Assembly: GCF_019056515.1 (NCBI RefSeq)
Contig: NZ_CP064873.1
Coordinates: 1,054,001-1,118,000, forward strand
DNA: 64,000 bases
Reading direction: 5' to 3'
DNA from: Microbacterium paraoxydans
GTDB lineage: Bacteria > Actinomycetota > Actinomycetes > Actinomycetales > Microbacteriaceae
In this document: positions 4,601 through 33,235 of the stretch, one piece after another
How positions within the stretch are numbered: the first letter of the stretch is position 1
How the letters are laid out: each line of letters begins with the position of its first letter
Position numbers and translations under genes: made by a program
Notes under the pieces: model-generated
Databases searched by the model: none
What the model saw: only the letters and a program-made list of their open reading frames with translations
What the model was told of the DNA's origin: nothing

Positions 4601-4671
4601 CCGTCGTCCTCTCTGGCGGCCTCGGGGTCGCTGCAGGGGGGCGGAACGGACGCACGCGCGTGCGCCTCGTG

Positions 4672-4803
4672 CTGCCTCCCTTCCGGACTAGCGAGGTGTC
4701 CCTCGCATCACCGTCGGTTCCGGAATTCCACCGGATCGGCATCCCGATCACTCGGAACGCTCGCGGACTGTCACCGCCGGTTCGGATTCCCACCGACCCC
4801 GGA
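4672..4803 (-). promoter_or_regulatory. FMN riboswitch (RFN element)
   Basis: Read on the minus strand, the element begins GGGGTCGGTGGGAATCCGAA, continues ACCGGCGGTGACAGTCCGCG, then GGTGGAATTCCGGAACCGAC, and closes with AGTCCGGAAGGGAGG. These are the conserved blocks of the six-helix FMN aptamer, in order. It sits immediately upstream of ribD. FMN binding is expected to turn off ribD-ribE-ribBA-ribH. A possible -10 box, TACACT, lies upstream near 4823-4828; no good -35 box is visible. Confidence 0.95.
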
Positions 4804-4877
4804 GCACGTTGCTGCTCTGAGTGTACTCAACGCGTCCGCGCCCGTTTCATTCCGTGGCAGGGGCCCTTCCCCGCCCC

Positions 4878-31036: not shown

Positions 31037-32095
31037 GTGAGCGCGCACGGGGGAGAATCACCGACCGTCAGTGTGTCGATCCGGACGGGTCCGGGCGAGG
31101 ACGCGCATGCGGCACAGCTCGCGGCACGGCTCGACGGCGCTCCCGTCCGCATCTGCCCGACGGGCGCCGCGGCATGGCGGCCCTGGACGCGACGAGCCAC
31201 GCATCATCTCGTCCTCGACGCTGCGGTGCGCCCGCACCCTCACCTTCTCGCCCAGGTGCAGGAAGCCGTCGCCGCGCAGCCCCGGGCGGTCCTGAGGCTC
31301 TTCACCCGCAGTGACGGCTACGCCTCGCATGCGTCCCGGGTGGCGGCGTTCTCCGGGTGCTCGTGGTTCGTGCCGCCGGGCCCCGATCCGTCGTCCGTCG
31401 CCGTCGTGCTGCCGGTTCCCGAGGCGGCGGAGTTCGCGCGTTCCGTCCCGGGTGGCGATCTCGACCCCGTCGGGCTGCTGCTGCAGCGGTTCGCGGCGGA
31501 ACAGGGCCTCAGCCTGCTCGCGAGCACGGCCGATCTCGTGCAGCTCGAAGGGGCGGGGGCGCACGCTCCGGCCACTGCCTTCCTGTCTGCGGCGATGGCG
31601 CCGGCGGACTGGTGGCGGCGGCCGTCGCTCGTGTCGCCGTCGTCGATCCCGGTGGTCCATCTCCGGGACGGCGAGCCGCTGTCGTACGAGTCCGTGCCGG
31701 GCACGCCGGATGGTTGGCGTCTCCGCACACGCCGGGAGGTGCCGACGCCGCACGCCCGACGGCTCGCACGAGTGATGCAGGAACGCCTTCTCGGCACGGA
31801 GGTGGCCCGCAGCCATCTCCGCGCAGCGGCCGTGCTCCTCGGGGTGGCGGGAGTGCTGCGCGACCAGCTCCTCCTCGCCGCGGGGTGGGGCCGGCCGTCC
31901 GATGAGTTCGGCACGGCGGTGGCGCGGGAGGCCGCGGCGACCCTCGCCCTCGGGACACTGGCGGAGGCGGTCCCGGCTGCGAGTCGACCGGATGGTGCCG
32001 CAGAGCTCCGCGACGCCTTCCGGGTGCTGTACGACGAGATGACCGCGATCCTGGGCACGGCGCCTCCCCGGGCCGCGCGTGGAGCCGATCCATAG
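31037..32095 (+). CDS. Uncharacterised 352-aa protein
   Basis: I do not recognise this family. The GTG at 31037 is chosen because GGGAGGAGG lies 5-6 nt upstream. The N-terminal 110 residues (VSVSIRTGPGEDAHAAQLAARL, then THHLVLDAAVRPHPHLLAQV) recall a degenerate GT-A glycosyltransferase fold in which the DxD-like position reads LDAAV. The rest is Ala/Leu-rich with FSGCSWFVPPG and a helical C-terminus, without clear membrane helices. A Rossmann-like, non-catalytic protein is the most I would infer. It stands alone between the ndh terminator and the riboswitch. Confidence 0.75.
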   Translation: MSAHGGESPTVSVSIRTGPGEDAHAAQLAARLDGAPVRICPTGAAAWRPWTRRATHHLVLDAAVRPHPHLLAQVQEAVAAQPRAVLRLFTRSDGYASHASRVAAFSGCSWFVPPGPDPSSVAVVLPVPEAAEFARSVPGGDLDPVGLLLQRFAAEQGLSLLASTADLVQLEGAGAHAPATAFLSAAMAPADWWRRPSLVSPSSIPVVHLRDGEPLSYESVPGTPDGWRLRTRREVPTPHARRLARVMQERLLGTEVARSHLRAAAVLLGVAGVLRDQLLLAAGWGRPSDEFGTAVAREAAATLALGTLAEAVPAASRPDGAAELRDAFRVLYDEMTAILGTAPPRAARGADP

Positions 32096-32110
32096 GCCGC
32101 CTCGCTAGCG

Positions 32111-32250
32111 TGTCGACCGCAAGGGGAGTACTCCCGTCTGCAGCGACGTCGTCATGACGGGCATGTCATCGTGCCCCGGCCCGCTGGCCCGCGAGGGTGG
32201 AGGAGACCTTGGCACCCGAATCGCGGGCTGCCCGGAACCTTGCGTCGACA
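32111..32250 (+). promoter_or_regulatory. yybP-ykoY (Mn2+) riboswitch
   Basis: Both metal-binding loop sequences are present: AAGGGGAGTA at 32121-32130 and GGAGACCTTGGCA at 32202-32214. P1 closes CGCAAGG (32118-32124) on CCTTGCG (32238-32244), and pairing extends outward to TGTCGAC/GTCGACA. P2 is CCCGTC (32133-32138) with GACGGG (32156-32161), enclosing the conserved ACGTCGTCA. P3 includes GTGCC (32171-32175) with GGCAC (32211-32215). A -10 box TAGCGT lies at 32106-32111. Downstream, GTCCC-N5-GGGAC (about 32275-32289) could hide the ribosome site of the next gene. Confidence 0.85.
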
Positions 32251-32292
32251 GAGGTCGCGGAGAACGGCGGTCCGTCCCACGAAGGGACCCCC

Positions 32293-33159
32293 ATGTCGAA
32301 GCTCTCCCGCCTGATCCGCCTCGCCACCGACGCCATCGACGCGAAGGGGGGAAGCCCCGGGGTGCGCGGCGGCGAGGGCGCGCGTGCCTCCACCGACTGG
32401 AGCGGGATGATCCGCGGCGCGGTCGACGCCGTGCGGGGCACCGATCCTCAGGCGCAGCGCCCGACCGCGCCTCCTCCCGCGTCCCCGGCGCCCACCCCTC
32501 CCGCCGGACGAGCATCCGCCGCAGGGGCGTACGCCCCGCCGCCCGCTCCCGCGTCCGGTGGTGCGTCGGACGTCTCCGCGGCGGACCGCGCGGCCATCGC
32601 CCGGTACGACTACCTCCTGCAGACAGCGGATCCACATCGGATCGAGCAGATCCATCGCGAGGCCTTCGCGCGCCTCACGCCGTCGCAGCGCGCGCACGTC
32701 GACGCCCGCATGCGGGCGGAGCTCCCGGCGGAGGAGCGACCGCGCTCGTCGTCTGCGGACGACCTGGCCCGCGCGGCCGGACGGGCCGAGGCGATGCAGC
32801 CCGGCCGCCTGCGCGGACTCCTCTCCCGCGCCCGCGGCGGCGGGGCCGCGGTCGCCGCGGGCGGCGCGGCGGTCGGTCTCCTCGGCGTGGTGGCCGGCGG
32901 AGCCGTCGTGAGCACCGTGGCCGCACCGCTCCTGGAACAGGCGGCGGGGCTCGGGGTGGACTTCGACGCGCTGGCGCAGGGCATCGACCTGGATGCGCTC
33001 GCCTCCGGCGTCGACATCGACGCGCTGGCCGGCGGCGCCGACGAGATGCTCGGCTCGGCCGGCGAGGCCGTCTCGGGTCTCGGCGAGACGGCGACCGGCT
33101 GGGGGGAGCGGCTCGGCGATCTCGGTATCCCCGGGATCGGCGACATCCTCGGCCGCTGA
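32293..33159 (+). CDS. Uncharacterised 288-aa protein under a Mn2+ riboswitch
   Basis: The protein has a short helical N-terminus (MSKLSRLIRLATDAIDAKGG) and a Pro/Ala-rich linker (about 55-95). A conserved-looking core follows, with IARYDYLLQTADPHRIEQIH and FARLTPSQRAHVDARM. Next come a Gly/Ala-rich hydrophobic helix (about 195-220) and a C-terminal DxDAL repeat: VDFDALAQG, IDLDALASG, VDIDALAGG. The acidic DxD repeats could bind divalent cations, but that is inference. The upstream yybP-ykoY element normally controls Mn2+ exporters such as MntP, TerC or P-type ATPases; this gene resembles none of them. The start follows GAAGGGA. Confidence 0.8.
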   Translation: MSKLSRLIRLATDAIDAKGGSPGVRGGEGARASTDWSGMIRGAVDAVRGTDPQAQRPTAPPPASPAPTPPAGRASAAGAYAPPPAPASGGASDVSAADRAAIARYDYLLQTADPHRIEQIHREAFARLTPSQRAHVDARMRAELPAEERPRSSSADDLARAAGRAEAMQPGRLRGLLSRARGGGAAVAAGGAAVGLLGVVAGGAVVSTVAAPLLEQAAGLGVDFDALAQGIDLDALASGVDIDALAGGADEMLGSAGEAVSGLGETATGWGERLGDLGIPGIGDILGR

Positions 33160-33162
33160 CGG

Positions 33163-33235
33163 TGCCCCCGCTGGGACTCGAACCCAGACTGAGGCGATTT
33201 TAAGTCGCCTGCCTCTGCCATTGGGCTACGGGGGC
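33163..33235 (-). tRNA. tRNA with UAA anticodon (Leu by anticodon), class-I shape
   Basis: On the minus strand the 73-nt cloverleaf has acceptor GCCCCCG/CGGGGGC, an anticodon arm GGCGA-CTTAAAA-TCGCC, a five-base variable loop (TCAGT), and T arm CTGGG-TTCGAGT-CCCAG, with A at the discriminator position. The anticodon is TAA (UUA, Leu). A standard bacterial tRNA-Leu is class II with a long variable arm and about 85 nt; this one is not. The D stem has only three good pairs (C·A at 13-22). CCA is not encoded. Confidence 0.85.

Follow-up and report, generated by a model that had tools for sequence, protein, structure and literature searches.

Within the stretch of 64,000 nucleotides of Microbacterium paraoxydans analysed here (the window; contig NZ_CP064873.1, positions 1,054,001 to 1,118,000), a riboswitch which by computational identity is a Mn2+ riboswitch of the yybP-ykoY class has been found before the gene of a 288-residue protein, P288 (32293-33159, plus strand), that matches no Pfam or NCBIfam family and is linked to TerC through its homologues and their operons. 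We consider it fairly probable that P288 is a Mn2+-induced membrane partner of TerC, whose gene would respond to Mn2+ by being switched ON and whose product would sit in the membrane as a single-pass protein. Its purpose we infer from the co-regulation and the overlap with TerC, and the protein probably helps Microbacterium to handle manganese. The observations behind this reading are computational and concern the identity and covariation of the aptamer, the position of its promoter box, the terC context, the operon overlap and the lack of a profile match to known families. The riboswitch can thus be regarded as a built-in function label: through it, a family of membrane proteins that has no annotation is connected with Mn2+ handling, while the likely partner is named by the overlap with terC. 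P288 is thereby a direct candidate for a protein that TerC needs.

The element occupies the intergenic region between the upstream ORF, which ends at 32095, and P288. The aptamer itself has been located at 32115-32216 on the plus strand (contig positions 1086115-1086216), where the covariance model R1 scores 110.2 bits (E 4.6e-24), the window's own aptamer being among the sequences used to build this model. R1 is derived from an alignment of Microbacterium-type leaders, A1, in which 42 of the 52 distinct elements are represented by one row each, two of these rows being TerC leaders and one labelled Microbacteriaceae only; a second alignment, A2, comprises 92 elements. The motifs GGGGAGTA (32123-32130), CGTCAtgACG (32150-32159) and GAGACC (32203-32208) are found in the aptamer. 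By counts on a hand-drawn structure, the switch helix P1.1 is formed by CAAGG (32120-32124) with CCTTG (32207-32211) and P1.2 by CTCC (32131-32134) with GGAG (32199-32202). P3.1 joins CAGCG (32141-32145) to CGCTG (32182-32186) with both-sided changes in four of five pairs, the P3.2 hairpin (32159-32176, with 32159-32165 paired to 32170-32176) shows such changes in six of seven pairs, and the P4 hairpin GCCC-GCGA-GGGT (32187-32198) is paired in 100% of cells. The 5' side of loop L1, GGAGTA (32125-32130), is invariant in 42/42 rows of A1 and, as GGGAGTA, in 92/92 rows of A2; on its 3' side, GAGA (32203-32206), AGACC is invariant in A1 and the preceding G is kept in at least 90% of rows, so that in A1 numbering G9-A16 and A90-C94 are invariant and G89 reaches at least 90%. 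Loop L3 (32146-32158) contains CGTCA..AC including A32154, and CGTCA, ACG and C.GG are invariant in A1. The first-pass annotation of this DNA had seen both metal-binding loops together with P1, P2 and P3. Indeed, L1, L3, P1.1, P1.2, P3.1 and P3.2 are all present, as is P4; the P2 arm, on the other hand, is absent, the linker at this place being only 3-7 nt long in 91 of the 92 A2 elements.

Upstream of the aptamer, a -10 promoter box TAGCGT has been recognised at 32106-32111 (plus strand). In 55/55 homologous leaders, a TANNNT box precedes GGGGAGTA by 16-18 nt, whereas shuffled letters give an average of 4.7/55 and a maximum of 11/55 over 500 shuffles. From this near-fixed spacing, the transcript is expected to begin with the aptamer or a few bases before it.

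That the riboswitch element is real, as had been proposed in the first-pass annotation, has become clear from its conservation and covariation. Homologues have been retrieved by two routes, through 38 named contigs and through 59 genomes of the genus (31 with a match, 26 close), and both routes have been pooled into 64 close P288 loci, the window's own included and some genomes present twice. Of the 64 loci, 56 carry the element immediately ahead of P288, one (L054) carries it ahead of a terC-P288 pair, and seven (L024, L028, L033, L034, L036, L047 and L052) lack it. RNAalifold on A1 yields the expected fold unaided, with both-sided changes in 14/26 pairs, each in at least one sequence. A second structure has been drawn by hand on the same sequences, following the helix architecture of the known yybP-ykoY aptamer; it leaves 96.5% of cells paired versus 34.6-49.0% for slid versions, a control that is biased towards any structure derived from the tested sequences themselves, and it shows both-sided changes in 14/25 pairs. 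The covariation score of 0.370 versus 0.195 in shuffled alignments has been reached by 0/500 shuffles, and further pair types have been no more numerous than in shuffles (197/500 as high). Save for the outer two P1.1 pairs and one P3.1 pair, the hand-drawn helices are recovered independently by RNAalifold.

Regarding the class of the element, the Rfam model RF00080, to which the first-pass annotation had referred its proposal, gives no match in the window even at E <= 10, and a search of the complete genome stays empty at both E <= 0.001 and E <= 0.5. Over its cut-off, it has been found in 0/199 Microbacteriaceae genomes and in none of 246 genomes of the class (Actinomycetes). The same model (Rfam 15) does not recognise the alx leader of E. 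coli K-12 (L241) at all, and the mntP leader (L242) reaches 44.9 bits versus a cut-off of 45. Therefore, the failure of RF00080 in the window is uninformative, and it is the model that falls short. Both the alx and the mntP leaders are described as Mn-sensing riboswitches in PMC9603457. R1, built from Microbacterium-type leaders, scores 40.9 bits on the alx leader (E 3.9e-9), in an alignment that shares GGGGAGUA, CGUCAUUACG, CCGG and GAGACCUU, and its match to the mntP leader is weak (10.9 bits, E 0.16). At E <= 0.001, R1 finds the element in 131/199 Microbacteriaceae and 147/246 Actinomycete genomes. Furthermore, in seven of eight actinomycete loci with sub-threshold RF00080 matches the best R1 match falls at about 1464-1640, with 19.7-45.1 bits (six at E <= 1e-5, one at 0.0031), which is the locus middle and the expected RF00080 site if the flank is 1500 bases; the eighth locus (L240) has no R1 match there. 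The window element is accordingly placed, by this computational identity, as a new member of the known yybP-ykoY class. The present RF00080 model misses Actinomycete riboswitches, and surveys that use it will miss real Mn2+ riboswitches.

The likeness to the class (RF00080; alx, mntP, L. lactis yoaB, X. oryzae) extends to the L1 motifs GGGGAGUA/GAGACC, to GUCA..ACG in L3 with CCGG, to the helices P1.1, P1.2, P3 and P4, and to the position before Mn2+ efflux genes. By its motif, compared with the L. lactis aptamer sequence, A32154 is presumably the invariable Mn2+-ligating adenosine (A41 in L. lactis, A48 in X. oryzae), and its column is invariant in 42/42 rows of A1. For the solved aptamers, passages of PMC6754395 and PMC9190785 describe Mn2+ as coordinated by five phosphoryl oxygens together with N7 of the invariable adenosine, and the former source describes a stabilisation of the switch helix P1.1 by Mn2+. 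For the 3' half of P1.1 with L1, the X. oryzae construct has GAGACCAGGGAU, as given in passages of the same two papers (PMC6754395, PMC9190785), and the window counterpart reads GAGACCTTGGCA. Unlike the L. lactis and X. oryzae crystals, the Microbacterium element has no P2 arm to complete a four-way junction. As the E. coli alx leader likewise has no insert at the place of P2 in the R1 alignment, this absence is not counted as a departure from the class. A difference does lie in what is controlled, since the P288 family goes unmentioned in the passages of class literature consulted. In the open-licence literature searched, no report of P288 or of a riboswitch before it has been found.

The genes behind other copies of the element connect P288 to TerC. 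Two more copies are present in the same genome, each before a TerC gene (PF03741, E 1e-48 each). Among Microbacteriaceae, 92 matches in 90 loci are followed by TerC in 86 cases (by BLAST), by P288 in two and by neither in four. A class search over 26 loci has given TerC in 22, P288 in three, all of the genus Microbacterium, and neither in one, and 20 further class loci, selected because their genomes hold several copies or are small, have given TerC in 16 and neither in four. Taken together, 124/138 R1 matches in Actinomycete loci precede TerC, in a sample that is not random, as its loci were picked for top scores, as second copies, or for the multiple copies or small size of their genomes. 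A yybP-ykoY leader before terC of Corynebacterium glutamicum is described in passages of PMC3890552. Some Actinomycetes carry three to five copies: five R1 matches have been found in one genome (G382), where TerC lies downstream of three of the four fetched copies, and three in another (G302), all three followed by TerC.

The elements with neither TerC nor P288 downstream (4/92 family and 5/46 class matches) are those of L133, L146, L192, L106, L108, L221, L223, L228 and L231. In L133 (334-434, 54.3 bits) and L146 (352-451, 49.6 bits), which belong to two Microbacteriaceae of a single genus with genomes of only 1.5-1.7 Mb, the R1 match precedes a gene for a TctC-like receptor and then further transporter genes. 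In L133, Pfam identifies these genes as TctC-TctB-TctA, unusual company for a Mn2+ riboswitch, and an Rfam scan of this locus returns nothing at E <= 0.1. A strong match in L192 (1501-1604, 67.7 bits) stands before a gene for a 110-residue membrane protein with a PGPGW domain and not before terC. L106 (3388-3493, 60.9 bits) and L108 (3405-3495, 64.6 bits) are likewise strong matches with no TerC within the fetched stretch, and the L108 element is directed into an ackA-like gene of the opposite strand, at the 3' end of that gene.

The closest tie between the two proteins is an operon. In six genomes of four genera, terC and P288 follow one another behind one riboswitch (L054 in Microbacterium; L159, L160, L164, L171 and L175 in three others), and the P288 start lies at gaps of -1, +2, -4, -4, -4 and +2 from the terC stop, in the same order of loci. 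This position of the start at the terC stop suggests that both genes are translationally coupled in the operon genomes. P288 and the TerC family (PF03741; MeeF/MeeY in B. subtilis, Alx in E. coli) thus share the same riboswitch and, in these six genomes, an operon. At one further locus (L058), terC and P288 diverge, with a separate element in front of either gene. The first-pass annotation had proposed to check whether homologues of the protein in other Actinobacteria follow such elements as well. They do within Microbacterium, in the 56 of 64 loci and the one operon given above, and mostly do not in other Microbacteriaceae, where the element accompanies more distant homologues in 5/26 loci, all via terC, and the remaining 21/26 are without an element in the fetched flank, save for a chance-level match in L180 (16.2 bits, E 0.1).

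In a tree of 88 proteins, the P288 forms of the six operons group together (100/97), next to those of Microbacterium. A clade of 65 rows (99/98) contains the riboswitch-linked P288 proteins, 52 with their own element, six in the operon and seven without, and the 23 rows outside this clade have no element in the fetched flank. We read the tree as a single origin of the Mn2+ link of P288 followed by about two losses; it is compatible with, and no proof of, such a single origin. All seven close homologues that lack the element look leaderless. Six of them (L024, L028, L033, L034, L047 and L052) form one clade with Microbacterium oleivorans. In this clade a -10-like TACCGT lies just before the ATG, and these P288 genes are apparently leaderless, in what would be a natural loss of Mn2+ control.

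P288 had been set apart in the first-pass annotation from MntP, TerC and the P-type ATPases usual behind this riboswitch, and the profile searches bear this out. It is not a member of the TerC family, as it has no PF03741 match and only one hydrophobic segment. The name 'cation-transporting ATPase', frequent on NCBI records of its homologues, reflects a likeness in name only, no ATPase domain being found in Pfam or NCBIfam. Of 8000 candidates scored for the family, 759 proteins reach E <= 0.001. In the 42 aligned members, a helix-like stretch at the N-terminus is followed by a linker of low complexity, the helical core, a glycine-rich hydrophobic segment and an acidic tail. In P288 the helical core covers residues 96-182 (32578-32838), with FARLTPSQR at residues 125-133, and the surroundings of FARLTPxQR are conserved across the family, with invariant residues. 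The AlphaFold model gives block pLDDT values of 78-97 over residues 101-180 and below 70 for most other blocks; as a whole it is of low confidence outside the core (mean pLDDT 67.1, pTM 0.40). Since LTPxQR recalls the LTxxQ of CpxP-Spy-like metal-stress chaperones, DUF3106 and CpxP have been inspected. Profile scores in the family are weak (DUF3106 at best E 0.0079, in 10/42 members; CpxP at 0.071, in 1/42), and no metal-binding domain has been recognised in P288.

Downstream of the core, the hydrophobic segment at residues ~187-214 (32851-32934; Kyte-Doolittle maximum 2.06 at 196-214) would form one membrane span, and the acidic tail of residues 215-288 (32935-33156) contains 14 D/E and two K/R. 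The three DxDAL units, which the first-pass annotation had named along with the FARLTPSQR motif, are found in this tail as DFDAL, DLDAL and DIDAL; family-wide, only the DF of the first is nearly invariant. Apart from L035, which reads out of frame, the tails of the 96 scanned family proteins have 10-16 acidic and 0-3 basic residues. With L035 left out, the tail is net negative in 95/95 members, the net charge before the hydrophobic segment is positive in 89/95, and over the 30 residues just before it in 94/95. According to the positive-inside rule for membrane protein topology, positive charges before a segment followed by a negative tail would place this tail outside. P288 would then be a single-pass membrane protein with a cytoplasmic core.

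Regarding the control of expression, TerC leaders and the 16 short P288 leaders show more complementarity between the 3' strand of P1.1 and the region of the ribosome site than shuffles do, so that formation of P1.1 would free the ribosome site in these. The long P288 leaders, to which the window belongs, show a complementarity only slightly above shuffles. The likely ribosome site of the window, by sequence reading, is GAAGGGA (32281-32287) before the ATG at 32293. A stem GTCCC-ACGAA-GGGAC had been suggested to mask it; the letters are present at 32274-32288, and the masking function finds no support, as the aptamer, when forced in an ensemble calculation, does not free the ribosome site (an increase in 22/51 leaders, mean 0.50 -> 0.45) and RNAalifold on 45 leaders returns no conserved pairs, in a weak test that mixes long and short leaders. 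By analogy to the class, excess Mn2+ would dock L1 on L3, the docking would stabilise P1.1, and the formation of P1.1 would turn expression ON. Expression of P288 would then rise alongside that of the two TerC copies which the genome carries under the same aptamer.

As for the readings that compete with this one, it is hardly credible that the element before P288 is a chance or non-functional remnant. The empty RF00080 search of the window would fit such a remnant, yet the model misses alx as well, and the compensatory changes in 42 distinct rows and the near-fixed -10 spacing in 55/55 leaders speak against it; the covariation already contradicts it. Improbable, too, is a leader that senses something else in addition to or instead of Mn2+, such as alkaline pH, to which the E. 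coli alx leader has been reported to respond. The score of R1 on alx, far above that on mntP (40.9 vs 10.9 bits), would agree with this, while the kept metal-site letters of L1 and L3, including the invariable adenosine, argue for Mn2+ as the ligand. A hint at alkalization in the context of alx is contained in PMC9603457.

A different alternative accepts the riboswitch as real and sees in P288 a general Mn2+-stress envelope protein of the same regulon that has no working contact to TerC, for example an acidic Mn2+-binding membrane buffer. Most Microbacterium copies of P288 examined indeed stand alone, each with its own element and with no TerC in the fetched flank, homologues without a nearby riboswitch or terC exist, and the net negative tail throughout the scanned members (95/95, L035 left out) would suit a buffer. 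Against this, the six operon genomes, the P288 proteins of which form one clade, show a stop-start overlap with terC that points to coupled production, and we regard a P288 without TerC contact as possible though rather unlikely. If P288 is instead the membrane partner of TerC, as we prefer, it would work with TerC either by assisting Mn2+ export or by passing Mn2+ to secreted or membrane proteins. For B. subtilis TerC proteins, passages of PMC10550928 report Mn2+ efflux activity and propose that they metalate exported proteins at the secretion machinery. Only tentatively can the preferred reading be carried further, to a new family of TerC partners founded by P288, which would be induced by Mn2+, bind TerC and hand Mn2+ by the acidic outer tail to exported proteins or the cell surface; in this far-reaching form we consider it doubtful.

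A paralogue group of Microbacteriaceae, recognisable by MGFLDRLFG...GFGDFGF, has the core motif, the hydrophobic segment and the acidic tail as in P288. The six loci of this group that were examined (L065-L068, L184 and L186) contain no riboswitch. DUF2076 appears in some UniRef names of the group; a scan of four paralogue proteins does not confirm it, with E 4.6 in a single one. Directly behind P288 on the minus strand, a tRNA-Leu (taa) has been located at 33161-33235; a tRNA likewise follows P288 immediately in L001 and at a distance of about 0.7 kb in L002. The window also contains an FMN riboswitch at 4666-4810 on the minus strand, with a score of 79.8 bits.
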